NCBI RefSeq assembly: GCF_015207655.1
Contig: NZ_JADEWN010000001.1
Coordinates: 1 to 64,000, forward strand
DNA from: Gloeocapsopsis crepidinum LEGE 06123
GTDB lineage: Bacteria > Cyanobacteriota > Cyanobacteriia > Cyanobacteriales > Chroococcidiopsidaceae
Length of the DNA: 64,000 nucleotides
Direction: 5' to 3'
In this document: one piece after another, positions 17,893 to 40,958 of the stretch
Numbering within the stretch: the stretch's first letter is position 1
How the letters are laid out: the number at the start of each line of letters is the position of its first letter
Translations under genes and position numbers: made by a program
The notes under the pieces: model-generated
Seen by the model: only the letters and a program-made list of their open reading frames with translations
Told to the model about the DNA's origin: nothing
Database searches by the model: none

Positions 17893-20673
17893 ATGCAAAA
17901 ATCCATCCTATCCACCATCGAAGCTGGTGCGGATCTTAGGCAGTGTACTCGCCATCCTCTTAATACCATTTTTGCACCAAAAACTGTTGCCCTCATCGGT
18001 GCGACGGAAAAACCTGATAGCGTCGGACGAACAGTTTTATGGAACTTAATTAGCAATCCCTTCGGAGGAACAGTATTCCCAGTTAATCCCAAACGACCCA
18101 GCATTCTTGGAATTAAAGCTTATCCCAATATCGCCACCGTCCCTGAACCTGTCGATCTTGCTGTTGTTGTCACTCCTGCTGCAACTGTCCCTGGGGTGAT
18201 GTGCGAATGTGCGGCAGCGAAGGTTAAAGGTGCAATTATCATCTCCGCTGGTTTTAAAGAAATAGGTGCAAAAGGAATTGAACTCGAACAACAAATTTTA
18301 GCAGCGCAAGCATCATCAGGTATGCGTATTATTGGTCCTAATTGCTTGGGTGTTATGAGTCCCATAACCGGATTAAATGCCACCTTTGCCCCACACACAG
18401 CGCTTCCTGGTAGTGTGGGATTCATTAGCCAAAGTGGTGCTTTATGTACCTCAATTCTTGATTGGAGTCGTCGCGAAAATGTTGGATTTAGTGCCTTTAT
18501 TTCTATTGGTTCGATGCTGGATGTGAATTGGGGTGACTTAATCGATTACTTTGGTGACGATCCGCATACCAAAAGTATTGTGATTTATATGGAATCGATT
18601 GGCGATGCGCGTTCTTTCCTCTCAGCAGCGCGCGAAGTCGCACTAACTAAGCCTATTATCGTCATCAAAGCAGGTCGAACAACCGCAGCAGCCCAAGCAG
18701 CAGCCTCGCACACGGGCGCGTTAAGTAGTAGTGACGAAGTTCTTGATGCCGCTTTCCGGCGTTGTGGTGTCTTGCGCGTTAACAGTATCGACGACTTATT
18801 CAATATGGCAGAAGTGCTTGCCAAACAGCCGCGTCCCAAAGGAAAAAGACTGACAATTCTCACGAATGCTGGCGGTCCTGGCGTGATTGCCACCGATGCT
18901 TTAATTGCCCAAGGTGGCGAACTTGCAGAATTAGCACCAGAGACAATTGCAACACTCGATCGAATACTTCCACCTCAATGGAGTCATCATAATCCAATTG
19001 ATATCTTAGGCGATGCTGACCCCGATCGCTATGCCAAAGCCTTAGAAATTGCGGCACAAGACCCTAATAGTGAAGGATTATTGGTCATCTTAACACCCCA
19101 ATCAATGACCGATCCGACGCAAACCGCCGAGCGATTAAAGTCCCACATCGAAAAGAATCAGCAACCGATCGCATCTAAAATTGGAATGCCGATCCTTGCT
19201 AGCTGGATGGGCGGTGCAGATGTGGCGACTGGCGAAAGAATTCTCAACTGCGCCCATATTTCGACTTTTGCTTTTCCTGATACTGCTGCGCGTGTATTTA
19301 ATTATATGTGGCAGTACAGCTACAACTTGCGGGGGTTATATGAAACTCCAACCTTACTTATAGGCGATTCAGGAATTGTACACCGTGCTGGTGCTGAGGA
19401 AATTATTTGGAAAGTGCGTCAGCAAAATCGGACGATTCTAACAGAATGGGAATCGAAGCAACTGCTTGCTGCTTATGGTATCCCGAGTGTAGAAACTTAT
19501 GTTGCGACCAACGTTGAAGAAGCTGTGAGTCTTGCTGAGGCGATCGCTTATCCTGTGGTTCTCAAGTTGTTTAGTGAAACAATTACGCACAAAACTGATG
19601 TCGGTGGCGTGCAGTTAAACTTACAAGATGCCGACGCGGTACGGACTGCTTATCAAGCGATCGAGTCAGCCGTGCGTGAAAAAGTCGGTGCTAACCATTT
19701 TATGGGTGCTACTGTTCAACCAATGATCTCACTCGATGGTTACGAATTGATTATTGGTAGCAGCATCGATCCGCAGTTTGGTCCAGTTTTACTATTCGGT
19801 ACTGGTGGGCAACTCGTAGAAATCTTTCAAGATCGGGCGCTAGCATTACCACCGCTCAATAGCACCCTAGCACGGCGGATGATGGAACAAACGCAAATTT
19901 ATCAGGCACTTCAAGGAGTACGCGGGCGTCCAGCAGTCGATTTAGCTAGCTTAGAGCAACTTTTAGTCAGATTCAGTCAACTCGTTATTGAACAACGGTG
20001 GATCAAAGAAATTGATATTAATCCGTTGTTAGCGAAGCCAGGACAAGATAATGGTTTAATCGCCCTCGATGCGCGGGTTGTCCTCCACGAACCAACAATC
20101 ATAGAAGACGAACTACCGAAACTGGCAATTCGTCCTTATCCAATGCAATATATTTCATCTTGGCAGCTAAAAGATGGCACAAACGTCACAATCCGCCCGA
20201 TTCGTCCAGAAGATGAACCGTTGATGATTCAGTTTCATCACTCACTTTCCGAAGAAAGCGTTTACTTACGCTATGCTCATGTGACAAAGTTGAGTTATCG
20301 TACTTCCCACGAACGACTAACGCGGATTTGCTTTATCGATTACGATCGCGAAATTGCTTTAGTAGCCGAGTACGAAGATCCCCAAACTAAAAAGTGTCAA
20401 ATTATCGGAGTGGGACGATTAAGTAAATTACACCAGTCGAATGAAGCCGAGTTTGCTTTGGTCGTGAGCGATCGCTACCAAAATCAAGGATTAGGAACTC
20501 AATTACTGCAACAATTATTACAAATAGGTCAAGATGAAAAACTCAACCGCATGACTGCTGACATTCTCCCCGACAATCTGGCAATGCAGCATTTGTGTAA
20601 AAAACTCGGTTTGCAGATCTTTCGTGACTCACAAGCAGCAATGATGAAAGCAGACATTGAACTTCTTGGATGA
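17893..20673 (+). CDS. ADP-forming acetate/acyl-CoA ligase fused to GNAT acetyltransferase
   Basis: CoA-binding [55 protein letters not shown]-grasp [20 protein letters not shown]-terminal GNAT ...[22 protein letters not shown]. Confidence 0.93.
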
Positions 20674-24581: not shown

Positions 24582-27500
24582 TCAAAGGTATTGTTGCAAC
24601 TGTTGTGCTAGGGTTTGAACGTGAGGCTGCTTCAGCATAGAGAGATGATTTCCTGGTACTTGATGAACTTGGATAACTTTAGCTAGTTGACTCCAACCTA
24701 GTGTCAAATCTTTTTGGTGAGAGGAATCATCAGTTTTAAATAGCGTAATGCGCTTAGGGTAGTTTTGTGGTGCATACCGATATGCTGCTTGGCTATTAGC
24801 ATAATAAATCCGCAACATTGGCGCGATCGCAGATTCATCAACTAACCGTAATTGTGACTCTTCAGGAATCAAATTGGCGATCGCTAACCATTGCCAGCGA
24901 GAAAACCAATTGTGGCGTCGGCGGCGAGTTAGGTTTGTGACAATCGCACTATAATCTAGTAAAAACGGCAGTGTAGACCAAATTGCTGTTTTGAGGAGAA
25001 GCTTTAGGCTGTGACTAAGAGATGGTTGGTTGGCAGGAATCGGTGCTGGAGTATCTAGAATTGCCAAAAGTGCGACTTCGTGTCCTAACTGCGTTAGTTG
25101 TTGCGCCATCTCAAAAGCAACAAGTCCCCCAAAAGACCAACCACCGAGAAAATAGGGACCATGCGGTTGAACAGTTTGAATGGCTTGGATGTAATACCTT
25201 GCCATCGCTTCAATTTGTTGAAAGGGAGTGTGTTTGCCATCTAATCCTAAAGGTTGCAGCCCATAGAAACTGCGATTGCCTCCTAAATAATGTGCTAACT
25301 CCAAGTAAGGAAAGACAATACCAAAGATAGGATGAACGCAGAAAAAGGGTTGCTTGTTATTTCCCTTTGTGAGGAGGACTAATGGCGACCAAACTTCTGT
25401 AACCTGCTGCGGTGATGGAGTTTGAGTTTGGATTTGGGCTGAGTTGTCACTTGTTAATGACGATCGCAATCGGCGGTATGATGCTCGATCGAGTTGAACT
25501 AATGCGGGTTGTTGAGTGATGGTATCCTGTAATTCTTCTATCACTACAGCTAGTTGTGCAATCGTTGGCGATTCAAACACGCTACGCAAGGGCACTTCAG
25601 TTCCAAAAACATCGCGCACGCGGGAGACAAGTTGTGTTGCGAGTAAAGAATGTCCGCCTGATTCAAAAAAGTTGTCGTGAATACTTGTGGATTTAAGATG
25701 TAATTCTTGCCAAATTTCAGCAAGCTTATATTCTGTAGGCGATCGCGATGCAATTGTTGTCCTTGATGTTGAAGTCACGTCTGGCAACGCACGGCGATCA
25801 ATTTTACCTGTAGAAGTCAGACTGAATGACTCTACTGGAATAAATACAGAAGGGATCATGTATTCAGGTAGAGTTTGCCCTAAATAGTCGCGGAGTTGAG
25901 GAATGAGTTGACGCGCAAATTGAGCTTGTAGCGGATTATTAGCATAATCACTCCAGGTTGGTGGTGCTGATTGCTGAACAAGAGGTAAATCAACTTCTCC
26001 CACCCCATGCCGAATCAAGACGACATCATAGTCACCTGTTTGTGTTTGCGTAGACCAACTAATTTCTACGCGGTAGGGTAATACAGATTCTAAGTTCCAC
26101 CAATCTTGGGGATCAATTGCTAGTTCAGTAGAGTGTAATTCACGCATTCGCCCCAGTGTTTTTGGCACAGATTGATGAAATAGCCAGCTGGCAGTTTGAA
26201 CTGCGGTATGTACTCGAGAGTTGGTAACGTTAGCAATGCCAAAGACTTTTGGGTCAGTCTCTCGTAAATGATTTTGCACGTCAGTGATTGTGAGTGGCTG
26301 TTGTTTCCAGTTCCTCCACGTTGTTGAAGCCACAGTAGCTGCCTCATCCATATGTAACAACACGTTGTAGCGAAATTGTGTCATTTCATTATGGCTATGA
26401 CCTCGCGTTAGGTAAATTTGCACGCGCTGAATTCGAGGAAAGCGATCGCGTAAAGCATTAAAAAACTGGGGATCAATCGCTAATTCAGGTTCCTCAAAGT
26501 GCGATCGCTCAACTTGTTGTCGGAGTTGCTTTTGTTCTAATCCTGGATCGACTTGTGAAGCTTGCATCCAAGTATGAAAGGCAGTCAGTAACGGCAAACT
26601 GCGGACATCACCAATAAACAGCACACCTTTTGGTGCTAATGCCTCAATGGATTTTTCTAGTACCTGTATGAGATAATCTAGACTAGGAAAATACTGCACT
26701 ACCGAATTGAGAATCACAACATCAAATGTTGCAGCAGGAATTCCGGTAAAATCTGTTGCTGTTTGATGGAGTAGTTTAACTTGAGTTAGATTGCCTAACT
26801 GATTTTGAATAGCTGCTAAGGAGTTTGAAAAGTCTGTTGCCCAATAACTTTGACAATGAGGGGCAATTGGAAACAACAATAATCCTGTTCCACAACCGAT
26901 TTCTAAAACTTTTTGGGGATGAAGTGCCAGAATTTGCTTAACGCGATCGCTTACCCATTCTTGCATTTGTTCAACTGGGATGGGCTGTTTAGTGTAGCTA
27001 CTATTCCAACCAGTAAAATCACAGTCGCTGGCATTGGTAGATTGATACGTTTGGTTATACAGCGTTTGCCAGCGTTGCACCTGCTGCATTTGCAGAGATT
27101 CCCGTACTTGCTGATGCTTGAGGCTAAAATAGGCAATTAAGCGTAAATCGTTCGCTGCTGCTTGAAATACAGTTGTGACAGCATCTTGTATAGCAGGATT
27201 TCGCTGTAGTGTTGCTTCAATTTCACCCAACTCGACACGAAAACCGCGAATTTTAATCTGGTTATCAATCCGCCCTAAAAACTCAATTGTGCCATCAGTA
27301 TGATAGCGGGCGCGATCGCCTGTTTGATAAAGACGAGGATTGCGGCATTCATCATCAAAAGGATTGGCAATAAACTTTTGAGTTGTTAATTCTGGGCGAT
27401 TGAGATAGCTGTGCGCAACTCCTGCACCACCAATATATATTTCACCAGGTACACCGATAGGAACTTGATTTAAAGCAGCATCTAGAATATAAACTTGAGT

Positions 27501-30014
27501 GTTAAATACTGGACGACCGATTGTAATGGGCTGTCCTGGAAATAATTCTCCCACGGTTGCCCAGATTGTTGTTTCTGTTGGTCCATACGCATTGAAAAAT
27601 TGACGATTTACTGCCCAGCGATCTACTATCTGAGGCGAACAAGCTTCACCGCCTGTAATTAGCGTTTGCAGTGCAGGAAGTTCCGCAGATGGCAGAACAT
27701 TTAACACTCCTGGAGTCAGCAGTGCATGAGTAATGGCATTGTCTTGAAGAAATTGGATGAGTGCTGTTCCTGGTAACTGCGCAGACTTGGGTGGAATATA
27801 AAGCGTACCTCCCGATCCGAATGCTAATGCTATCTCAAAAACAGAAGCATCAAAACTGAGAGAGCTAAATTGTAAAACGCGAGGGCGTGAGGCTTGAAAA
27901 ATTTGACGTTGTGCTGCAACAACATGACATAAACTACGATGCGTAATTAAGACACCTTTGGGTGTCCCTGTGGAACCAGAGGTGTAAATGACATAAGCAA
28001 GATTGTCACGCCCTACAACTTGATGTGGTGTTTTCTGATTGAGTTCTGGTAGTTGATCCAGGTATAATTGTACTGGTGTTGCTGGTATCTCACTCAACCA
28101 CGATTGGGTTAGTACAATTGAAACTTGCGTATCTTCAAGAATAAATTGCAGGCGGTGCTGTGGATACTGAGGATCGAGCGGTACGTAAGCACCACCCGCT
28201 TTGAGAATTCCTAAAATACCAATGACCATTTCTGGCGATCGCTCGACACACAACCCTACTAAGTCATTCGGCTGAATAATTTGCTGCAATGTTTGTGCTA
28301 GTTGATCGGCACGTTGATTTAACTGTTGATAGGTAAGTGTTTCATGTTCTCCAACGAGTGCGATCGCTTTAGGAAATAGCTGTGCTTGTGCCTCAAATAT
28401 CTGATGAAAGCATTCTTGAATGGGTTCTTCTGATGCAGTATTGTTCCATTCACAAAACTGCTGCTGTTCTCCAGAGGTGACGAGGGGAAGTTCTAACAAA
28501 CGAGCATCTGGATTGACAATGATGCCTTCTAGTAGAGTTTGAAAATGTTCTATCAAGCGACCGATTGTATGTCGATCGAATAAATCTGTACTGTAAGATA
28601 TAAAGCCACTTAAGCCTTCTTGCGATCGCCACAGGCTGCGTAGTCCGTGATTTGGTTCCCACAAATGAACTTCTAAATCAAACCGCGTCGTTCCTGGTTC
28701 TATGGCAACAGGTTCTAGGGTGACTCCTGGTAATTCTAAAGGCTGCATGGGGGCATTTTGCAGCGCAAATGCCACTTGAAAAAGTGGATTGCGGCTGAGA
28801 TCTCGCTGGGGATCTAATTCTTCAACAAGTTTTTCAAATGGCAAGTCTTGATGTATGTACGCTGCAAGAGCAACATCTCGAACTCGCTGGAGTAATTCGC
28901 GAAATGTAGGATTACCGGATAAGTTTGCACGCAACACTAGACTATTGACAAAAAAGCCAATTAAGTCTTCAAGTTCACTGCGATATCGATTCGCAATGGG
29001 AGAACCCACAACAATATCTTCTTGCCCTGTATAGCGGTAGAGTAACGTTTGAAAGGCGGCTAGCAGCAGCATAAACAGCGACACGCCTGCTTGCTGGCTC
29101 AAGTTTTCTAACGCTTGAGTGAGAGCAGGAGAGTACTGTAAACGATAGGTTGCACCTCGGTAAGTCTGTACTAAAGGACGAGGGCGATCGCTCGGTAATT
29201 CCAGCACTGGTAAATTCTGCAATTGCGATCGCCAGTAAGTCAGTTGTTCTAATTCTTGTAACTCATTACGTTGCCAGCAGGCAAAGTCTGCATATTGAAT
29301 TGGTAATGCAGGTAATGTTGGCGTTTCTTCTTGCACAAAAGCACTATAAAAGCAAGCAAGTTCGCGTACAAGTATCCCCAATGACCAACCATCTGCAACG
29401 ATATGATGCATCGTTAACAGCAAAATGAACTCGTTGGCATGAAATTGCAGCAACGTGACTCGTAAAAGCAGATCGCTACTGAGATTAAATGGGCGTTGTG
29501 CTTCAGCAGTTGCTAACTTTTGGATTAGGCGATCGCGTTCCTCTTGCGGTACAAATTGTAAATCCACTACAGGTAACGTCAGCTTGACTTGGGCAGCAAT
29601 AACTTGAACAGGTTGTCCATCAACAGTTTTAAATGTGGTACGCAGTGCTGCATGACGCCGGATAATTTCATTAAATGAGCGCTCTAATGCCTCTTGATTG
29701 AGTGTTCCTTGCAACCGAATTGCCGCAGGTACGTTATAAAAAGGATTATCGGGTGCTAGCTGATACAAAAACCACAATCGCTGTTGGGCAAATGATAAGG
29801 GATACGTTGTCGCACAGGCAACAGGTTGAATAACAGTCGAGTGTAACGATTGCTGATGCAGTGCTAAAATTTCGGCTTTGCGCTCAACTAACTGTTGTCG
29901 CAGTTCGGGCGTGAGAGTTCCTTCAGGTGCATGACAACGCAGGCGATCGCCTTCTACTGATACTTGCACATCTAAACTTTTTAAATATGCTAAAAATTCA
30001 ACAGTTGTCGTCAT
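24582..30014 (-). CDS. NRPS: TubC-type docking domain - C - A (with inserted N-methyltransferase) - PCP - thioesterase
   Basis: N-term TTTVEFLAYLKSLDVQVSVEGDRLRCHAPEGTLTPELRQQLVERKAEILALH (TubC_N-like); HHIVADGWS; YTSGSTGTPKGV; VLEIGCGTGLLLFPIAPHCQSYWATDFS; DNFFESGGHSLLATQL; TE GWSFGG. Confidence 0.95.
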   Translation of the reverse strand: MTTTVEFLAYLKSLDVQVSVEGDRLRCHAPEGTLTPELRQQLVERKAEILALHQQSLHSTVIQPVACATTYPLSFAQQRLWFLYQLAPDNPFYNVPAAIRLQGTLNQEALERSFNEIIRRHAALRTTFKTVDGQPVQVIAAQVKLTLPVVDLQFVPQEERDRLIQKLATAEAQRPFNLSSDLLLRVTLLQFHANEFILLLTMHHIVADGWSLGILVRELACFYSAFVQEETPTLPALPIQYADFACWQRNELQELEQLTYWRSQLQNLPVLELPSDRPRPLVQTYRGATYRLQYSPALTQALENLSQQAGVSLFMLLLAAFQTLLYRYTGQEDIVVGSPIANRYRSELEDLIGFFVNSLVLRANLSGNPTFRELLQRVRDVALAAYIHQDLPFEKLVEELDPQRDLSRNPLFQVAFALQNAPMQPLELPGVTLEPVAIEPGTTRFDLEVHLWEPNHGLRSLWRSQEGLSGFISYSTDLFDRHTIGRLIEHFQTLLEGIIVNPDARLLELPLVTSGEQQQFCEWNNTASEEPIQECFHQIFEAQAQLFPKAIALVGEHETLTYQQLNQRADQLAQTLQQIIQPNDLVGLCVERSPEMVIGILGILKAGGAYVPLDPQYPQHRLQFILEDTQVSIVLTQSWLSEIPATPVQLYLDQLPELNQKTPHQVVGRDNLAYVIYTSGSTGTPKGVLITHRSLCHVVAAQRQIFQASRPRVLQFSSLSFDASVFEIALAFGSGGTLYIPPKSAQLPGTALIQFLQDNAITHALLTPGVLNVLPSAELPALQTLITGGEACSPQIVDRWAVNRQFFNAYGPTETTIWATVGELFPGQPITIGRPVFNTQVYILDAALNQVPIGVPGEIYIGGAGVAHSYLNRPELTTQKFIANPFDDECRNPRLYQTGDRARYHTDGTIEFLGRIDNQIKIRGFRVELGEIEATLQRNPAIQDAVTTVFQAAANDLRLIAYFSLKHQQVRESLQMQQVQRWQTLYNQTYQSTNASDCDFTGWNSSYTKQPIPVEQMQEWVSDRVKQILALHPQKVLEIGCGTGLLLFPIAPHCQSYWATDFSNSLAAIQNQLGNLTQVKLLHQTATDFTGIPAATFDVVILNSVVQYFPSLDYLIQVLEKSIEALAPKGVLFIGDVRSLPLLTAFHTWMQASQVDPGLEQKQLRQQVERSHFEEPELAIDPQFFNALRDRFPRIQRVQIYLTRGHSHNEMTQFRYNVLLHMDEAATVASTTWRNWKQQPLTITDVQNHLRETDPKVFGIANVTNSRVHTAVQTASWLFHQSVPKTLGRMRELHSTELAIDPQDWWNLESVLPYRVEISWSTQTQTGDYDVVLIRHGVGEVDLPLVQQSAPPTWSDYANNPLQAQFARQLIPQLRDYLGQTLPEYMIPSVFIPVESFSLTSTGKIDRRALPDVTSTSRTTIASRSPTEYKLAEIWQELHLKSTSIHDNFFESGGHSLLATQLVSRVRDVFGTEVPLRSVFESPTIAQLAVVIEELQDTITQQPALVQLDRASYRRLRSSLTSDNSAQIQTQTPSPQQVTEVWSPLVLLTKGNNKQPFFCVHPIFGIVFPYLELAHYLGGNRSFYGLQPLGLDGKHTPFQQIEAMARYYIQAIQTVQPHGPYFLGGWSFGGLVAFEMAQQLTQLGHEVALLAILDTPAPIPANQPSLSHSLKLLLKTAIWSTLPFLLDYSAIVTNLTRRRRHNWFSRWQWLAIANLIPEESQLRLVDESAIAPMLRIYYANSQAAYRYAPQNYPKRITLFKTDDSSHQKDLTLGWSQLAKVIQVHQVPGNHLSMLKQPHVQTLAQQLQQYL

Positions 30015-33000
30015 AACTCTATTTCCTCGCGTCGCTGCTTGAGATGATCAGAAGTCGCCTGCGCTTGCATCGAAACTGCATCAATTTTCTGTGCAAGTTG
30101 GGCAATTGTGGGAGTTTCAAACAAACTCCGCAGTGGAATTTCGACTTGAAAGTGATCGCGGACACGCGAGATTAGTTGTGTTGCTAGCAGCGAATGTCCG
30201 CCTAATTCAAAGAAATTATCGTGAATTCCTACCTGTTTGCGTCCCAGTAGTTGACACCACAGATCTACTAAAGATTTTTCTACCGAGGTACTAGGAGTCA
30301 CTAATATTGTGTCTGGTGTAATTGTGGGTAATGGTAATGCTTGGCGATCAATTTTGCCGTTAATTGTCAAAGGTAGTGTCTTTAATGGGACAAACACCGC
30401 AGGAATCATATATTGAGGTAGTTGCGTTTTTAAAAAAGATCGCAATTCGCGATCGCTAACTACTACCGTTGGTTGGGGAACAAAGTAAGCAATTAATTGA
30501 CGATCTCCGGCAATTTCGCGCACATTTACCACAGCCGTTTGCACACTCGGATGCTGCGCTAAAACTGTTTCAATCTCACCCAACTCTACCCGAAATCCGC
30601 GAACTTTGATTTGATTATCAATGCGACCCAAAAATTCAATATTGCCATCTGCACAACGACAAGCGCGATCGCCAGTTTTATAAAGACGAAGATTTCTATC
30701 TCGATCAAATGGATGAAAAATAAACTGATCTGCAGTCAAATCTGGACGATTGAGATATCCTTGTGCTAACCCATCTCCACCAAGATAAATTTCCCCACTG
30801 ATTCCTGCAGGAACTGGGTTGAGGTTAGCATCTAACACATAAACTTGAGTATTTGCAATTGCCTGTCCAATGGGAATTGTTATTGCATTTTCTGGTACTT
30901 CTTGCACTTCATACCAAGTAGAAAATGTTGTATTTTCTGTAGGTCCATAAACATGAATAAGATGCTGAGGTTTACCATGTTGTAGTACTGTACGGATGCG
31001 ATCGGGATTTGCTGCTTCGCCACCAAATAAGAGATATTTCAACGATTGAAACGCATCAGGAACTTCAGCCACAGTTTGATTGAATAATGCTGTTGTCAAA
31101 AACATGACATTGACGTGCTGTTGCTGAAGCGCAGTTTTAAAATCTGTAGGTGACAGCGTTGTTTCCCGTTCAATGTCTACTAACTCAGCACCATTGAGTA
31201 GTGCACCCCAAATCTCAAAAGTAGCCGCATCAAAAGCAACATTGGCGACTTTGGCAACGCGATCGCCTGGTGCAATTTCTATGTAGTCAGTTTGGCAAAC
31301 TAACCGATTAACCGCACGGTGAGCTACCATAACTCCTTTGGGGGTTCCTGTTGAGCCGGAAGTATAAATAACATAAGCTAGCTGATCTACGTTGCAAGGA
31401 GTATCCAGATTTTCCTCTGATTCTTGTGCGATCGCTGTCCATTCTTGGGCTAAATCAATTATTTTGACATTAGGTGTATTTAAAAATACTTCTTTTTTAT
31501 GTGTTATTACTAATGTAACTTGGGCATCTTCTACCAAAAAGCGCAGTCGTTCGGAAGGATAAGTAACGTCGAGAGGAACATAAGCACCGCCTGCTTTGAG
31601 AACTGCTAGCATTGCAGCAACGGTTTCTGTAGCTTGTTCTAGACAAATGCCTACACGTTCTGATTTGCCCAATTTCTGTAAATAACGTGCGAGTTGATTA
31701 CTACCTTGATTTAATTGTTGATAGGTAAATTGGTTTTGTGCGCGGATGGCGATCGCTTGTGGTTGTTGACTAACCTGTGCTTCAAATAATTGATGAATAC
31801 AAGCTGTGGGATAATTAGTGTAAGTACCATTTCCACTCATTAACACTTGCTGCTCTTGACTTGTTAACAGTGGCAATGCCGATAAAGGCGTATCTGGATT
31901 CGTCACAATTGCTGTAAGCAGTGTCTGAAAATGACTTCGTAGAGATGCGATCGCAGCTTCATCAAATAAATCAGTATTATAGATAACGACACCGCGTAAT
32001 CCGTCAGTTTGTTGCCATCCTTTGCCCCATAAATTTCTAAAATTACCCGTACATTTCCACATATATACTTCTAAATCAAAGCGCGTTGTTTTAACCTCAA
32101 ACTCAACAGCACTAAGAGTTAATCCTGGTAACTCTAGTTGCTCCATAGGGGTGTTTTGCAGCGCAAAGACGACTTGAAATAACGGATTTTGGCTCAGACT
32201 GCGCACAGGTTGCAGTTCTTCTACAAGCTTTTCAAACGGTAAATCTTGATGTGCATAAGCGGCTAGTGTGACATCCCGCACCCGATTTAATAACTCGCGA
32301 AAGGAGACGCCAGCTAGATTTGTCCGTAAAACAAGACTATTTACCAGAAACCCGATGATTCCTTCTAACTCACTGCGATGACGATTGGCGATCGGCGAAC
32401 CAATGGCAATATCAGTTTGTGCGGTGTAGCGATACAGTAAAGTTTGAAACGCTGCTAGCAAGGTCATAAATAGCGTGACACCTGCTTGCTGACTTAACTG
32501 TTCTAAGGCATCAAGTAACTGCTGTGGTAACTCTAATAATTGACTTGCACCTTGATAACTTGGGATTAAAGGACGAGGAGCAGAAGGTAAATTTAAAGTT
32601 GGTACATCTTTTAACTGCTGTTTCCAGTAGTTTAATTGAGTATTTAACACTTCTCCTTGCAACCACTCACGCTGCCAATGGGCAAAATCAGCATATTGAA
32701 TGGGTAACTCTGGCAGTGCAGCAGGTTGATTGTTCACAAACGCAGAATAGAGTTTACCTAACTCTCGAATTAAAATACCGCTTGACCATTCATCAAAAAT
32801 GATGTGGTGTAGTAAAATCAGCAGCAGATGTTCGGTACGATTCAATTGCCATAACTGTACTCGAAATAGTGGTCCCTGCTTTAAGTTAAAAGGCTGCTGA
32901 ATTTCTTGCTGAATTTGCTCTAAGGCGACTTGTTCGCGGGTTAAGGCTGGTAATGCTTGGAGGTTAATCGAGGTAAACGGTACCTGCATCAAACTTGGAG

Positions 33001-33256
33001 CAATAATCTGTACTAATTGCCCATCGATAACATCAAAAGTTGTCCGCAGCGTTTCGTGACGACAAGCGATCGCTTGAACACTTTGTTCTAGTGCTGAGTG
33101 ATGCAACAAACCTGTGAGTCGAAAGACTAGTGGAATTGTATAAAGAGAAGCCCTTGGAATTAATTGGTCGATGAACCACAATCGCTGTTGGGCAAATGAA
33201 GCTGGAAAGACAAACACTTCATCAACAGAATTACACTCTGTGCTTAAATCATTCAC
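30011..33256 (-). CDS. NRPS: C - A - PCP
   Basis: HHIIFDEWSSG; YVIYTSGSTGTPKGVMVAH; LTINGKIDRQALP; DNFFELGGHSLLATQLISRVR; stop overlaps the start of the downstream NRPS by 4 nt. Confidence 0.95.
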   Translation of the reverse strand: MNDLSTECNSVDEVFVFPASFAQQRLWFIDQLIPRASLYTIPLVFRLTGLLHHSALEQSVQAIACRHETLRTTFDVIDGQLVQIIAPSLMQVPFTSINLQALPALTREQVALEQIQQEIQQPFNLKQGPLFRVQLWQLNRTEHLLLILLHHIIFDEWSSGILIRELGKLYSAFVNNQPAALPELPIQYADFAHWQREWLQGEVLNTQLNYWKQQLKDVPTLNLPSAPRPLIPSYQGASQLLELPQQLLDALEQLSQQAGVTLFMTLLAAFQTLLYRYTAQTDIAIGSPIANRHRSELEGIIGFLVNSLVLRTNLAGVSFRELLNRVRDVTLAAYAHQDLPFEKLVEELQPVRSLSQNPLFQVVFALQNTPMEQLELPGLTLSAVEFEVKTTRFDLEVYMWKCTGNFRNLWGKGWQQTDGLRGVVIYNTDLFDEAAIASLRSHFQTLLTAIVTNPDTPLSALPLLTSQEQQVLMSGNGTYTNYPTACIHQLFEAQVSQQPQAIAIRAQNQFTYQQLNQGSNQLARYLQKLGKSERVGICLEQATETVAAMLAVLKAGGAYVPLDVTYPSERLRFLVEDAQVTLVITHKKEVFLNTPNVKIIDLAQEWTAIAQESEENLDTPCNVDQLAYVIYTSGSTGTPKGVMVAHRAVNRLVCQTDYIEIAPGDRVAKVANVAFDAATFEIWGALLNGAELVDIERETTLSPTDFKTALQQQHVNVMFLTTALFNQTVAEVPDAFQSLKYLLFGGEAANPDRIRTVLQHGKPQHLIHVYGPTENTTFSTWYEVQEVPENAITIPIGQAIANTQVYVLDANLNPVPAGISGEIYLGGDGLAQGYLNRPDLTADQFIFHPFDRDRNLRLYKTGDRACRCADGNIEFLGRIDNQIKVRGFRVELGEIETVLAQHPSVQTAVVNVREIAGDRQLIAYFVPQPTVVVSDRELRSFLKTQLPQYMIPAVFVPLKTLPLTINGKIDRQALPLPTITPDTILVTPSTSVEKSLVDLWCQLLGRKQVGIHDNFFELGGHSLLATQLISRVRDHFQVEIPLRSLFETPTIAQLAQKIDAVSMQAQATSDHLKQRREEIEL

Positions 33257-35984: not shown

Positions 35985-36746
35985 TTAGCGTTGAATCAAG
36001 ATGAATATTGCTACAGCAAGCACAAAGTAACCAAAGCCTTTTTCTAGATTTTTTGCTGGTACAAATCGAGTGAGGTATGCTCCAATCAGGATTCCGGCAC
36101 TAGCAGCGATAGTGAAAGAAAAAAGTAAATTCCAGTTGATTGTAACTTGATCTAAATAGCCGATAAATCCTGTAACTGATTTTAGTGCCAGGATGACAAG
36201 CGATGTACCAACGGCTTCTTTCATCGATGTTTTGCCGAGTAGAACTAAAGCAGGAATCACGAGAAACCCGCCACCAATACCAACAAATCCGGTAATGATA
36301 CCAACACCGAGTCCTTCGAGTGCGATCGCTAACCCACGAAATTTGTGCTGAGAAGTTGCATTGAGTTGAGGCTTGGCTGTTCGTGCGTCTTTACGGATCA
36401 TCGAGATTGATGCAATGAGCATCATCAGTGCAAATGCCACTAACTGAATTGTGGAAGTCACAAAAGGAAAAGCCGCAATCCGCGCACCAAGATATGCTCC
36501 TAGCATTGCTGGAGGTGCAAAAAAAGTAACAGTTTGGAAATTAACGTTTTTCTGCATCCAGTGGGGAATGACACCAATGAGACTGGCAACACCCACAATA
36601 ACGAGAGTCATCGCCAGGGCTGTTTTTGTTGGTACACCCATGATATAGATTAAGGCTGGAGCCGCTAGCACTGAGCCACCACCGCCAATTAAGCCCAAAC
36701 TTAACCCAATACTTACAGCAAGAATGTGCCCAATTATCCACAGCAT
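35985..36746 (-). CDS. TauE/SafE-family sulfite/anion exporter
   Basis: GLSLGLIGGGGSVLAAPALIYIMGVPTKTALAMTLVIVGVAS and repeated GFVGIGGGFLVIPALVLLGKTSMKEAVGTSLVIL. Confidence 0.92.
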   Translation of the reverse strand: MLWIIGHILAVSIGLSLGLIGGGGSVLAAPALIYIMGVPTKTALAMTLVIVGVASLIGVIPHWMQKNVNFQTVTFFAPPAMLGAYLGARIAAFPFVTSTIQLVAFALMMLIASISMIRKDARTAKPQLNATSQHKFRGLAIALEGLGVGIITGFVGIGGGFLVIPALVLLGKTSMKEAVGTSLVILALKSVTGFIGYLDQVTINWNLLFSFTIAASAGILIGAYLTRFVPAKNLEKGFGYFVLAVAIFILIQR

Positions 36747-37298
36747 TTAATTAATCCCTGTTTGGTTGTAGGGAAGTTTGGCAAGAAGCATTGCTAAGCC
36801 GCAGTTTCCTGTTATTCCTGCAAATGTTAATCCTGCACCGACAAATCCACTGAGAATCAGGAACCAGGGAGAAATAAACACACTCAGTAAAGTGCCAAGT
36901 AAAACTAGAGATCCTGCAACAATTTGAACTTGTCGCATCAGACTAATGGGAGCATTTTTATTCACTTCTGTTGGGTAGCCAGCTTGTTTCCATGCCGAGA
37001 TTCCACCTTGAAGATGGGTGACTTGCTCAAATCCATTTGCAAGTAACTTTTGAGCTGCTTGCGCCGAACGATTACCTGATTGACAATGTATGATTAGTTT
37101 TTTGTGAGTGTTTGAGATTTCACTAGGGTCAAATTTAGATAAGGAAACGAGTTTAGCACTAGGAATATGTTCGCTTGCGTATTCCGATGGTTCGCGTACG
37201 TCAATTAGATCGACAGTACCTTCATCGATCCAGTGTTTTAATGTTTTGGCATCAACTGTTTGCAAGCGATCGCTTAGTTTCTCTTTAGTTGCAGTCAT
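36747..37298 (-). CDS. Rhodanese with C-terminal DUF2892-type membrane domain
   Basis: DLIDVREPSEYASEHIPSAKLV, IHCQSGNRSAQAAQKL, C-terminal RQVQIVAGSLVLLGTLLS...FAGITGNCGLAMLLAKLPYN; start at ATG 37298. Confidence 0.9.
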   Translation of the reverse strand: MTATKEKLSDRLQTVDAKTLKHWIDEGTVDLIDVREPSEYASEHIPSAKLVSLSKFDPSEISNTHKKLIIHCQSGNRSAQAAQKLLANGFEQVTHLQGGISAWKQAGYPTEVNKNAPISLMRQVQIVAGSLVLLGTLLSVFISPWFLILSGFVGAGLTFAGITGNCGLAMLLAKLPYNQTGIN

Positions 37299-37330
37299 AG
37301 TAATCTGAGTGTGTGGTATTGAGTAAATTG

Positions 37331-38035
37331 CTACACAGCAACAGCAACGTTGCCACAACGTTCGTTTGCTGGAACTGCTTCCATTATTTTTTGGGGATTG
37401 GGCAAGTTGAGATTGTCCATGAATTCGATAAAGTTATCGCGCGTACGTCCTACAAAGCGCGGATTCCACTGCTTTTCTTCCCTGATTGTGGATACTGTGT
37501 GTCCTCGATAATCGTGCCCAGGATAGACTAAAGTGTCGTCTGGAAGTGTAAACAGGCGCTGAGTGACAGAGTCGTATAATGTTCCTGCATCACCACTCTG
37601 AAAATCGGTACGTCCACAGCCACGAATAAATAAAGCATCACCTGTTAATAAATGCGTGTTGTTGACAAGGTATGCTATGTGGCTATCGGTATGTCCAGGA
37701 GTTGCGATCGCTTTAATTTGTACATCGCCAATTTGCAATGTTTCGCCATCTCGAATGAAGCGGTTAGCACAAGCTGCATTGGCTTTTTCTGGTACAACTC
37801 CGTGACATCCTGTGAGTTCGCGTAGTTTTGCTGTACCAGTGATGTGATCGGCATGGATGTGTGTTTCTAAGCAGTAGCGGAGTGTTAAACCTAACTCGTT
37901 AATAAGTTTGCGATCGCGTTCGACTTGTTCCACGACTGGATCGACAAGTACTGCGTCTTTTGTTTTGGCATCTGCAATGAGATAAGTATATGTTCCGGTG
38001 TTTTGATCGAATAGTTGACGAAATAGCATATACAC
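37331..38035 (-). CDS. MBL-fold metallohydrolase, ETHE1-type persulfide dioxygenase
   Basis: MLFRQLFDQNTGTYTYLIAD, ETHIHADHITGT, ATPGHTDSHIAYLV, GDALFIRGCGRTDFQSGDAGTLYDSV. Confidence 0.92.
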   Translation of the reverse strand: MYMLFRQLFDQNTGTYTYLIADAKTKDAVLVDPVVEQVERDRKLINELGLTLRYCLETHIHADHITGTAKLRELTGCHGVVPEKANAACANRFIRDGETLQIGDVQIKAIATPGHTDSHIAYLVNNTHLLTGDALFIRGCGRTDFQSGDAGTLYDSVTQRLFTLPDDTLVYPGHDYRGHTVSTIREEKQWNPRFVGRTRDNFIEFMDNLNLPNPQKIMEAVPANERCGNVAVAV

Positions 38036-38182
38036 TTGCTCCTAATTTTTCACATGAATAAACTATTAATTAGTTAATTAATAAATTGTTAATATAACTA
38101 TATAGTAGAATAACAATTAAGAAATTGCAATACTGTGAGCTAATCGCTAAGTATTTACCTAGAAAGTCTTATGATTTCATCA

Positions 38183-38575
38183 TCAAGCGCGACGTAACTT
38201 TCCTAGTTGCTCTAGCTGTTCGCTTTGCTGGGTTATTTGAATAGATAGAGAGTCACAAACCATCTCGCACAGCTCAAATAGAATCGGATTTGCAATTTCG
38301 TAGTAGACGCACACACCGCGCTGTTCGCGGGAGACAATACCCGCCTGTGTAAGAATTCTTAAGTGCTTTGAGACGTTTGCCTGTCCGAGTTCGGTAGCCT
38401 CAATAATTTCGCTCACATTCTTAGCTCCTGATTTGAGCGAACAGACAATTTGTAAACGACTGACTTCTGACAGAACCTTGAAAAATTCGGCAATCAGCCC
38501 TAATGCCGCTGGCGATAACTGTGTCATTTCAGATGCTGTTAGAGAGCCGTTATTAGAGTGCAGTGTCATATACAT
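38183..38575 (-). CDS. ArsR-family transcriptional regulator (BigR/SqrR-like candidate)
   Basis: wHTH NVSEIIEATELGQANVSKHLRILTQAGIVSREQRGVCVYYEI; Cys in RLQIVCSLKSG and in the C-terminal helix ELCEMVCDSL. Confidence 0.9.
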   Translation of the reverse strand: MYMTLHSNNGSLTASEMTQLSPAALGLIAEFFKVLSEVSRLQIVCSLKSGAKNVSEIIEATELGQANVSKHLRILTQAGIVSREQRGVCVYYEIANPILFELCEMVCDSLSIQITQQSEQLEQLGKLRRA

Positions 38576-38662
38576 TGACTAATATATTGTGAACATAACA
38601 TGAATTAGCTTTCATTTTTTATTATATAGCTATTTAGTCATAAATTTCATTGCCCCTAAACT

Positions 38663-38938
38663 TTAGCGTTTTGCTTGCTCTAAGCGAGCATCACGAATAA
38701 CATTAATGCTTCCATACAAGACAATGATTGCAATTATGCTACCGATGATTAAGTCTGGAAGCGGCAAATTTGACAAACTGACCAGGAATCCTGCCAAAAT
38801 AACACCAAAGTTGGCAACAACATCGTTCAGCCCCGCAATCAATTCAACGACAAACATCATGCCATTGATGGCAAGCAGCAAGCGGAGTGCTTAACGCTGT
38901 GCCGCATCTGCTTTTATCTGACAACCACAATCTGACAT
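38663..38938 (-). pseudogene. Cation diffusion facilitator (cation transporter) pseudogene
   Basis: MSDCGCQIKADAAQR*ALRLLLAINGMMFVVELIAG joined directly to C-terminal TM region LNDVVANFGVILAGFLVSL...GSINVIRDARLEQAKR; in-frame TAA plus internal deletion. Confidence 0.75.
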
Positions 38939-39092
38939 ATCAAGCTCCTAACACAAGTATTAAATTACTGTGAAACAGGCATTTTATTGTCCATCTTGAC
39001 CAGAAGATCTGAAATCATCCACCCATAGCCAGATATTTTTATATAAACAATTAGTAATATAGTAAATTAATGAGTTAGTGGAATAAATAAAA

Positions 39093-39548
39093 ATGCAAAA
39101 CGTCAAAAAAATTAATGATGAAATTGCAGTAGCAACAAATCAATTAACATCAGAAGATTTGCAGCAAGCAGCACAAGTAGGATATCGTACCGTATTGAAT
39201 TTGCGATCGCCTAATGAAGAGGGAGTGTTGTCAGAAGAACAGCAGTATGCAGAAGCCGCGGGACTACAGTATGTCAACATTCCCGTCAAACCTGACAATT
39301 TGAATCAAGAATTAGCCGATCGCGTGCTACAGCAAATTGAGCAATCACCAAAACCTGTACTAGCTCATTGTAAAAGTGGTTTGCGTTCTGGTGCAATGGC
39401 ATTAATGTACGTTGCCACTCGCGAAGGAATGAGTGCAAAGGAGGCAATGCAGCGAGGTCAACAAATGGGGTTTGACTGCAACGCTAATCCAGCGATGAAA
39501 AAGTTTTTTGAAGAGTACGTAACGACATACTTCCAACGCTCAGAATAG
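39093..39548 (+). CDS. DUF442/Blh-type phosphatase-fold sulfurtransferase-like protein
   Basis: LTSEDLQQAAQVGYRTVLNLRSPNEEG, active loop AHCKSGLRSGAMALMY. Confidence 0.88.
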   Translation: MQNVKKINDEIAVATNQLTSEDLQQAAQVGYRTVLNLRSPNEEGVLSEEQQYAEAAGLQYVNIPVKPDNLNQELADRVLQQIEQSPKPVLAHCKSGLRSGAMALMYVATREGMSAKEAMQRGQQMGFDCNANPAMKKFFEEYVTTYFQRSE

Positions 39549-39566
39549 GAAGCAGGAGAACGGACA

Positions 39567-40958
39567 ATGGCATTAATACTAGAACAAATTAACGTAGAAG
39601 GTCTAGCGCATTTATCGTATATTATCGGTGATGATAAAGCTGGAGTCGCAGCAGTCATCGATCCACGGCGGGATGTTGATATTTATCTACAGAAAGCGCG
39701 AGAAATTGGAGTCAGGATCGCTGATATTGTAGAAACACACATTCATGCTGATTTTGTTTCAGGGGCAGGTGAATTACAAGCACGTACACAAGCAACAATT
39801 CACGGTGGAAAAACTGCTGATTATCAGTTTGAATTGCATCAGTTGCAAGAAGGTGATGAAATTAAATTAGGAAGTGTCACTTTAAAAGTTTTACACACAC
39901 CAGGACATACACCAGAGCATATTTCCTTACTCATCTACGACTCAAAGCAAGGTAAAGAACCGTTTGCTGTGTTTACAGGAGACACATTATTCAATCTTGA
40001 TGTGGGGCGTCCTGATCTACTTGGTGCTGGAACAGAAAAGCAACTAGCTCAACAATTGTACAACTCTTTGTTGGATAAACTCGTGCCTTTGGGCGATCGC
40101 ATCGAAGTGTATCCTTGTCATGGTGCAGGTTCAGCTTGTGGTAAGTCAATTGGCGATCGCCGCCATAGTACAATTGGCAACGAGCGTATTTATAATCCGG
40201 CATTACAAGAACGTAGCAAGACAGAATTTGTTGAGTGGTTGATGCAGGATATGCCAGAACCACCACGTCACTATGCTCGTCTGAAGAAGGTCAATGCTAA
40301 GGGTGCCAAAGTGATAGGATGCGTACCTACGTTGCAACCGCTAACACCCCGAGAGTTTCAACAGGCAATGCAACAACCGAACACAGTAGCGATTGATACG
40401 CGTTCAATTCTAGCATTTGGGGGCGGACATATTCCTGGTGCAATTAATATCGCACTGCGTCCAGAGTTTCCTAACTGGGTAGGTTGGATGATCGATCCTG
40501 AGCAAACAGTGTTGTTGGTTGTTGAAAGCGAACGCGATGTCAAACTAGCAACAGAACAACTATTCCGTCTAGGATACGATCATTTAGGTGGATATCTGCA
40601 TGATGGCATGACATCCTGGCAAAATGCCGGTTTACCTTTAGATCGTGTTGGTGAATGGACGGTACAAGAGTTGCATCAACACAAAGAAGATCCTGATGTC
40701 CTTGTGCTAGACGTGCGCGGTGATGATGAATATCAAAAAGGTGCGGTTCCAGGAGCAAAACATATGTTTGTAGCGCATCTTGAGGAACATTTGCACGAGC
40801 TAGACAGGTCTAAGCATATAGTTACGTACTGTGGTAGCGGTTTTCGCGCTGCGATCGCTGCTAGTCTGCTCAAAAAGCATGGATTTGAAAACGTGACTAA
40901 CATTCCTGGCTCTTGGATTGCTTGGAAAGCAGCAGGATTACCTGTAGAGACGACTTAG
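39567..40958 (+). CDS. MBL-fold persulfide dioxygenase fused to tandem rhodanese domains (CstB-like)
   Basis: VETHIHADFVSGAGEL, HTPGHTPEHISLLI, GDTLFNLDVGRPDLLG; then a rhodanese-like domain without loop Cys (VLLVVESERDVKLA) and a C-terminal rhodanese with YCGSGFRAAIAA. Confidence 0.93.
   Translation: MALILEQINVEGLAHLSYIIGDDKAGVAAVIDPRRDVDIYLQKAREIGVRIADIVETHIHADFVSGAGELQARTQATIHGGKTADYQFELHQLQEGDEIKLGSVTLKVLHTPGHTPEHISLLIYDSKQGKEPFAVFTGDTLFNLDVGRPDLLGAGTEKQLAQQLYNSLLDKLVPLGDRIEVYPCHGAGSACGKSIGDRRHSTIGNERIYNPALQERSKTEFVEWLMQDMPEPPRHYARLKKVNAKGAKVIGCVPTLQPLTPREFQQAMQQPNTVAIDTRSILAFGGGHIPGAINIALRPEFPNWVGWMIDPEQTVLLVVESERDVKLATEQLFRLGYDHLGGYLHDGMTSWQNAGLPLDRVGEWTVQELHQHKEDPDVLVLDVRGDDEYQKGAVPGAKHMFVAHLEEHLHELDRSKHIVTYCGSGFRAAIAASLLKKHGFENVTNIPGSWIAWKAAGLPVETT

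Follow-up and report, generated by a model that had tools for sequence, protein, structure and literature searches.

The window analysed here, a 64,000-nucleotide stretch of Gloeocapsopsis crepidinum LEGE 06123, carries two adjoining ORFs on its minus strand, P0002 (30011-33256) and P0001 (24582-30014), both intact and with the same limits as in the initial annotation. P0002 is the upstream gene, and its stop codon overlaps the P0001 ATG by 4 bp, as it does in the orthologues. Pfam analysis of P0002 revealed Condensation (residues 17-472), AMP-binding (491-835), AMP-binding_C (894-968) and PP-binding (996-1056) domains, and that of P0001 a TubC_N docking domain (5-55) followed by Condensation (69-519), AMP-binding (540-871), Methyltransf_12 (1037-1132), PP-binding (1431-1489) and Thioesterase (1556-1804) domains. 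Since the scores of both proteins are far above the curated cut-offs, chance matches are of no concern. Together the two proteins contain the C, A and PCP domains of a modular NRPS with their catalytic motifs, including the serines of both PCPs, and a terminal TE (Table 1). The order C-A-PCP, then docking-C-A(N-methyltransferase)-PCP-TE, which the initial annotation had read from the letters, was reproduced exactly by ORF calls and Pfam, and domains and gene order likewise support its view of a collinear two-protein NRPS.

Table 1. Features of the P0002/P0001 locus (positions in the window)
Feature	Position	Strand	Remarks
P0002, module 1	30011..33256	-	C-A(Ile)-PCP, 1081 aa, GTG start
Module 1 C domain	31841..33208	-	active site HHIIFDEW; HHxxxDE replaces HHxxxDG
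Module 1 A domain	30353..31786	-	code D-A-F-F-L-G-V-T-F(-K), predicted L-Ile (Val)
Module 1 PCP	30089..30271	-	FFELGGHSL
C-terminal acidic motif RREEIEL of P0002	30014..30049	-	putative ligand of the P0001 docking domain
P0001, module 2 and TE	24582..30014	-	docking-C-A(MT)-PCP-TE, 1810 aa
TubC_N-type N-terminal docking domain (P0001)	29850..30002	-	Pfam PF18563, E=9e-19
Module 2 C domain (LCL-like)	28458..29810	-	HHIVADGW
Module 2 A core domain	27129..28397	-	code D-A-F-L-I-G-A-I-W
N-methyltransferase between A8 and A10	25980..27017	-	VLEIGCG...NSVVQYFP
Module 2 PCP	25548..25724	-	FFESGGHSL; GGHS is the module-2 type, GGDS/GGNS the module-3 type
Fossil tail PALVQLDRASYRRLRSSL...	25410..25517	-	same as the C-terminal end of module-2 proteins that stand alone in three-gene relatives
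TE domain	24585..25391	-	starts WSPLVLL; GWSFGG nucleophile motif, GNHLSML His motif

The checked genes adjoining the pair include no PKS, FAAL, halogenase, PPTase or transporter gene, as had been stated before. The neighbours encode an alpha/beta hydrolase, a SPOR protein, TauE, rhodanese and MBL proteins and a fusion of an NDP-forming acyl-CoA synthetase with GNAT, none with an obvious biosynthetic role; a PPTase-superfamily gene (247 aa) lies about 100 kb away on the same contig. Apart from the pair, positions 35985-40958 hold a sulfur-handling group comprising a TauE/SafE exporter, a rhodanese with a YgaP-like membrane domain, a BLH-type phosphatase and two metallo-beta-lactamase proteins, one of them fused to rhodanese, which looks like a persulfide/sulfide detoxification set. 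The GNAT acetyltransferase fused to an NDP-forming acyl-CoA synthetase at 17893-20673 has a Pat/PatZ-like architecture.

Substrate codes, N-methylation and docking

A-domain codes were read by mapping onto GrsA positions 235-331. Mapping of module 1 gave DAFFLGVTF. DAFFLGVTFK is the Ile code in cyanopeptolin OciB-A5/OciC-A7 (PMC2533009), and A domains of aeruginosin-type synthetases carry the same DAFFLGVTF code for Ile (PMC13122637), so that these published precedents predict Ile/Val as residue 1. The module 2 code, DAFLIGAIW, is invariant in the complete two-gene orthologues; neither it nor similar codes found a match in the literature searched. The nearest codes in our data set are DAFIIGAIW and DAFTIAAVW of the relatives described below, the latter resembling DAWTIAAIC, the GrsA Phe code. 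Our guess is that module 2 would use an aromatic or bulky hydrophobic residue.

The methyltransferase is inserted into the A domain of module 2, between A8 (KIRGFRVELGE) and the C-terminal subdomain (A10 TSTGKIDR), and the A-MT-A stretch of P0001 aligns end to end with PDB 5wmm, a solved A domain interrupted by an MT. P0001 thus has the SAM methyltransferase between A8 and A10 that defines an interrupted A domain, and this position and similarity indicate that the methyl group is probably placed on the backbone nitrogen, in support of the N-methylated second residue predicted initially. The two proteins also show, at the sequence level, both halves of a TubC-type docking pair: PF18563 on P0001 and a conserved acidic C-terminus on P0002, with RE[ED]x[EDK][LFI] as the C-terminal end of module-1 proteins in two- and three-gene relatives. 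These features support chain transfer from P0002 to P0001 as the likely direction. The intact terminal TE, with its GWSFGG and GNHL motifs, is consistent with the predicted release by this domain.

Two- and three-gene relatives and the origin of the terminal thioesterase

The same two-gene pair, with the same order, 4-bp overlap and identical codes, occurs in at least 14 genomes from several families and orders. The set comprises G001 and G002 from the genus of the window, G014, G022 (with its module-2 gene broken across contigs) and the loci L009, L010, L011, L012, L015, L019, L021, L022 and L025, hosted by Nodosilinea, Leptolyngbya, Pantanalinema, Phormidium tenue and others. The A-domain codes are identical in all complete pairs, though P0001 identity drops to about 60%. 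Neighbourhoods are common to the genus of the window and G014, and among the Nodosilinea-type strains; otherwise they differ, so the two proteins are the sole conserved unit and the pair is self-contained. In an even sample of 386 genomes of the phylum, a full-length match was found solely in the genome of the window, together with the split match in G022, and about ten genomes had module-2 proteins without a TE, from which we take the two-gene form to be uncommon but widely scattered. As a member of a widespread gene-cluster family the pair is not a one-off. Literature searches returned nothing recognisable as this family or its product, in agreement with the initial statement that it matches no known pathway.

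At least 15 genomes contain three-module relatives, in which modules for Ile and for NMe-X or NMe-Leu are followed by an aromatic-like third module with a TE. In L014 (Aliterella atlantica CENA595), G005, G007, G013, G015 and G016 the third gene lies directly after module 2 and encodes C-A-PCP-TE where fully read; the codes read in this arrangement are DAFFLGVTF / DAFIIGAIW / DAFTIAAVW or DAFTIAAIW. A Leu-type code (DAWFLGNVV or DAWFLGNVI) is found in module 2 of G020, G037, G038, G043, G049, G050 and G056. Their third gene is some kb off or on another contig, the latter in G037 and G043; in G006 the third gene is separated by 1.1 Mb within one contig. The intervening genes inspected in the split relatives are apparently unrelated to peptide synthesis, and in G049 a PPTase adjoins module 1. 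That one predicted three-module line should be scattered (over contigs in G037 and G043, over more than 1 Mb in G006) or interrupted by unrelated genes (G050 and G056) is unusual for an NRPS. The three-gene family shares with the window pair a module 1 with HHxxxD[E/D] and DAFFLGVTF, a docking-C-A(MT)-PCP module 2 and the TE type, whereas it differs in having a separate gene with a third C-A(DAFTIAAVW/DAFTIAAIW)-PCP before the TE and, in its more distant members, a Leu-coded module 2.

When module-1 proteins were placed in a tree with module-3 proteins as the root, the two-gene forms (14 rows) made up a clade (100/100) nested within the three-gene forms as sister to G006. Forcing monophyly of the three-gene forms cost 99 log units and was rejected (AU p=6.3e-5), and the module-2 tree had the same shape. 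The TE of P0001 clustered with the module-3 TEs of the three-gene family, apart from the other cyanobacterial TEs in the set (100/99), and among the module-3 TEs it grouped with that of G006 (98/93). The TE tree alone is indecisive on polarity, since a placement of the two-gene TE outside all those of module 3 is not rejected (AU p=0.096); the direction of change was therefore read from the module-1 tree with its module-3 root. Alignment of the junction in P0001 revealed a module-2-type PCP, the PALVQLDRASYRRLRSSL tail and then WSPLVLL, the start of a module-3-type TE, in that order; the stand-alone module-2 protein L105, used for comparison, ends ...ALVRLDRAAHRRLRSSLTNESSDGV, and module-3 TEs share the start motif WSPLVPL. 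The junction between module-2 PCP plus tail and the WSPLVPL of the TE was resolved to about 25 residues. A module-3 orthologue is present in G006, G037 and G043, and none was found in the genome of the window (G000) or in G001, G002 and G014. The initial annotation had named additional NRPS genes elsewhere in the pathway as grounds for rejecting a two-protein system; the missing module-3 orthologue in this genome leaves that system standing.

The rooted trees, the module-3-type TE, the retained tail and the absence of module 3 together indicate a single loss of the module-3 C-A-PCP with capture of the module-3 TE. From these comparisons we conclude that the window system is in all likelihood a shortened tripeptide synthetase, with the TE of module 3 fused behind the tail of module 2. 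This apparent descent of the pair from a three-module family had escaped the initial annotation. The two-gene form occurs in several families and family f1 has both forms, which suggests horizontal transfer. The sister of the two-gene clade in the module-2 tree is a module-2 protein of Leptolyngbya sp. FACHB-36 (L013), in which DAFIIGAIW is the code. As its contig ends before PCP and TE, it could represent either the final three-gene stage or an early stage of the two-gene form.

The first condensation domain and the starter question

The residue after HHxxxD is E or D in 26 of the 26 module-1 C domains of the family, and all module-2 and module-3 C domains have HHxxxDG; the single E counted outside module 1 in the motif tally belongs to the truncated module 1 of G006. 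In fetched loci beyond the family, this residue is Gly in 162 C domains and another residue in 39, the exceptions including FAAL-linked starters (F, L), C domains with an Asp-code donor, several of them carrying A or E, and N-terminal C domains of proteins that contain no donor module. The residue seems to track unusual donors and could be usable as a marker of donor class.

The initial annotation had proposed a C-domain subtype phylogeny, starter versus LCL, and the outcome was divided when judged by the starter C characters of Rausch et al. (PMC1894796). The C domain of P0002 is the first in line, two-gene relatives having no upstream NRPS gene. It does not group with other starters apart from its own line: the family's C domains from modules 1, 2 and 3 fall into a single clade (99), which stands apart from a clade with three of five FAAL-linked starters, a comparison set that is small and itself not monophyletic in this tree. 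The first C domain thus appears, from the phylogeny, to derive from the family's own elongation C domains. Purifying selection acts on every domain of the pair (omega about 0.04-0.20), and the omega of the module-1 C domain, 0.10-0.11 across the orthologues compared, is similar to that of the other domains. HHxxxD[E/D] combined with purifying selection suggests a specialised donor, namely an acyl cap, and not a vestige; such a donor is the simplest reading of the first C domain.

An N-terminal starter without a loading gene had been expected, and both parts find support in a first module that begins with a C domain and in the lack of a loading gene. For a starter C domain without a loading gene there is a precedent in cyanobacteria, C1 of NosA, which takes up a fatty acid as starter (PMC12184294). 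No conserved loading, transport or tailoring gene emerged from comparing flanks between genera or from the intervening genes inspected in the split three-gene relatives, and no acyl donor was identified among the flanks or in a lyase/ligase candidate on contig C36. This candidate (C36:57795-62410, L165) has an aromatic amino acid lyase, an AMP-binding CoA-ligase-like protein and a PCP-TE in tandem, the lyase being found at 93-98% in nearby genomes and at 76% in G003, G009 and G013. The operon was rejected as starter supplier for a mismatch of distribution: searches of G003, G004, G009 and G010, which have the lyase, returned no close P0001 orthologue, and G022 and the Nodosilinea/Leptolyngbya pairs lack the lyase.

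The one further large NRPS locus in this genome, on contig C32 (C32:31000-85000, L111-L114), comprises FAAL-C-A, PKS (KS-AT-KR, one with MT) and NRPS genes, the codes being of the Ser, Thr and Asp types. It further has a terminal reductase and a C-TauD dioxygenase fusion, and is presumably similar to the cyanochelin-type clusters for beta-hydroxyaspartate siderophores. As a FAAL-C/PKS/NRPS locus in the same genome, it might supply the donor for the first C domain, the two loci then forming one larger pathway. However, C32 is provided with a start (FAAL) and a terminal reductase of its own, the pair recurs in other orders with unrelated flanks, and the C-terminal motif of module 1 already fits the docking type of its own partner, which makes such a joint pathway extremely improbable.

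The first C domain might also not acylate at all, so that the line would begin with free-amine Ile and release Ile-N-Me-Xaa as a free dipeptide or a diketopiperazine, which an N-methyl amide would favour. The absence of a loading gene or conserved companion near the pair, the kinship of the domain with elongation C domains and not with FAAL-linked starters, and the replaced Gly of HHxxxDG all fit a free-amine start. Nevertheless, the domain keeps HHxxxD under constraint like that on other domains (omega 0.10) and occurs in all two- and three-gene relatives, which would be unexpected for a dead domain; we consider a free-amine start unlikely. Diketopiperazine formation, which had been allowed for initially, is less likely than supposed: an N-cap would prevent such ring closure, and all orthologues compared keep the first C domain under constraint (omega about 0.10).

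Returning to an acylating first C domain, we tentatively extend it as follows, while doubting that the whole extension will hold: the domain would represent a distinct starter class marked by HHxxxD[E/D]W, evolved from elongation domains of the family, taking its acyl donor straight from cell pools without a loading gene, and one-step TE capture would then have made a tripeptide line an acyl-dipeptide line that is conserved across cyanobacterial orders.

Predicted product and known systems

Most likely, the pair makes a small isoleucine–N-methyl-amino-acid dipeptide, probably N-capped. P0002 would load L-Ile (or Val) onto its own PCP, and its first C domain would most likely N-acylate Ile, using a small acyl group that CoA or a carrier protein provides in trans. 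The C-terminal REEIEL would then dock onto the TubC-type N-terminus of P0001, which would load a second, hydrophobic or aromatic residue, N-methylate it while PCP-bound and condense both residues before the TE frees X-Ile-N-Me-Xaa. This sharpens the X-aa1-N-methyl-aa2 product of the initial annotation, with residue 1 now predicted as Ile/Val by its code and the module 2 code found conserved. The ancestor would have been a three-module synthetase for Ile, N-Me-Xaa and an aromatic-like residue in this order, with the TE in its third module; the third C-A-PCP would have been removed and the TE fused behind the module 2 tail. Taken as a whole, a complete two-module NRPS with an X-Ile-N-Me-Xaa product and a single origin from the three-module line is an explanation that we consider probable. 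Its direct support comes from domain order, conserved codes, orthology, nestedness, the junction and selection; we infer the substrates, their order of use (from docking) and the release.

Few modules, a terminal TE and the alternation of plain and N-methylated residues would also suit an iterative pair, in which the TE oligomerises and cyclises Ile-N-Me-Xaa units by a gramicidin S- or enniatin-like logic. No tested sequence feature sets apart an oligomerising TE, though; an N-cap would block head-to-tail joining, and the TE type is shared with the ancestral three-module line. Iteration is accordingly judged highly unlikely.

The role predicted for the first C domain of P0002 has a counterpart in nostopeptolide NosA, likewise a cyanobacterial NRPS, in which the first C domain couples a fatty acid starter to an amino acid held on a PCP; unlike the pair, NosA is tetramodular and part of a larger PKS/NRPS cluster (PMC12184294). 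The cyanopeptolin Oci system shares the identical Ile code DAFFLGVTFK and has an N-methylated aromatic residue adjoining Ile, but it makes a heptapeptide with Ahp and its module-6 code is DAWTIAGVCK as against DAFLIGAIW (PMC2533009). With two modules only and no tailoring genes, the pair is not a cyanopeptolin or aeruginosin cluster. Product lines shortened by natural module deletion are known from cyanobacteria in nodularin, derived from microcystin, and nostopeptolide KVJ3 (PMC8097286, PMC12184294), and the pair is likewise a cyanobacterial line shortened by module loss. A-T-C type boundaries have been reported for module-loss cases (PMC12184294); unlike nodularin and KVJ3, the pair lost a whole C-A-PCP, and the TE was captured behind the preceding PCP and tail. 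Dimodular NRPSs are a known kind and module loss is known in cyanobacteria, so that the surprise is moderate, while the history is here unusually clear. The pair represents an orphan, widely conserved cyanobacterial NRPS family that needs two genes, which makes it an easy target for heterologous expression, and it offers a natural example, with outgroups, of the removal of a whole C-A-PCP and re-attachment of the TE, an operation that NRPS engineers attempt.
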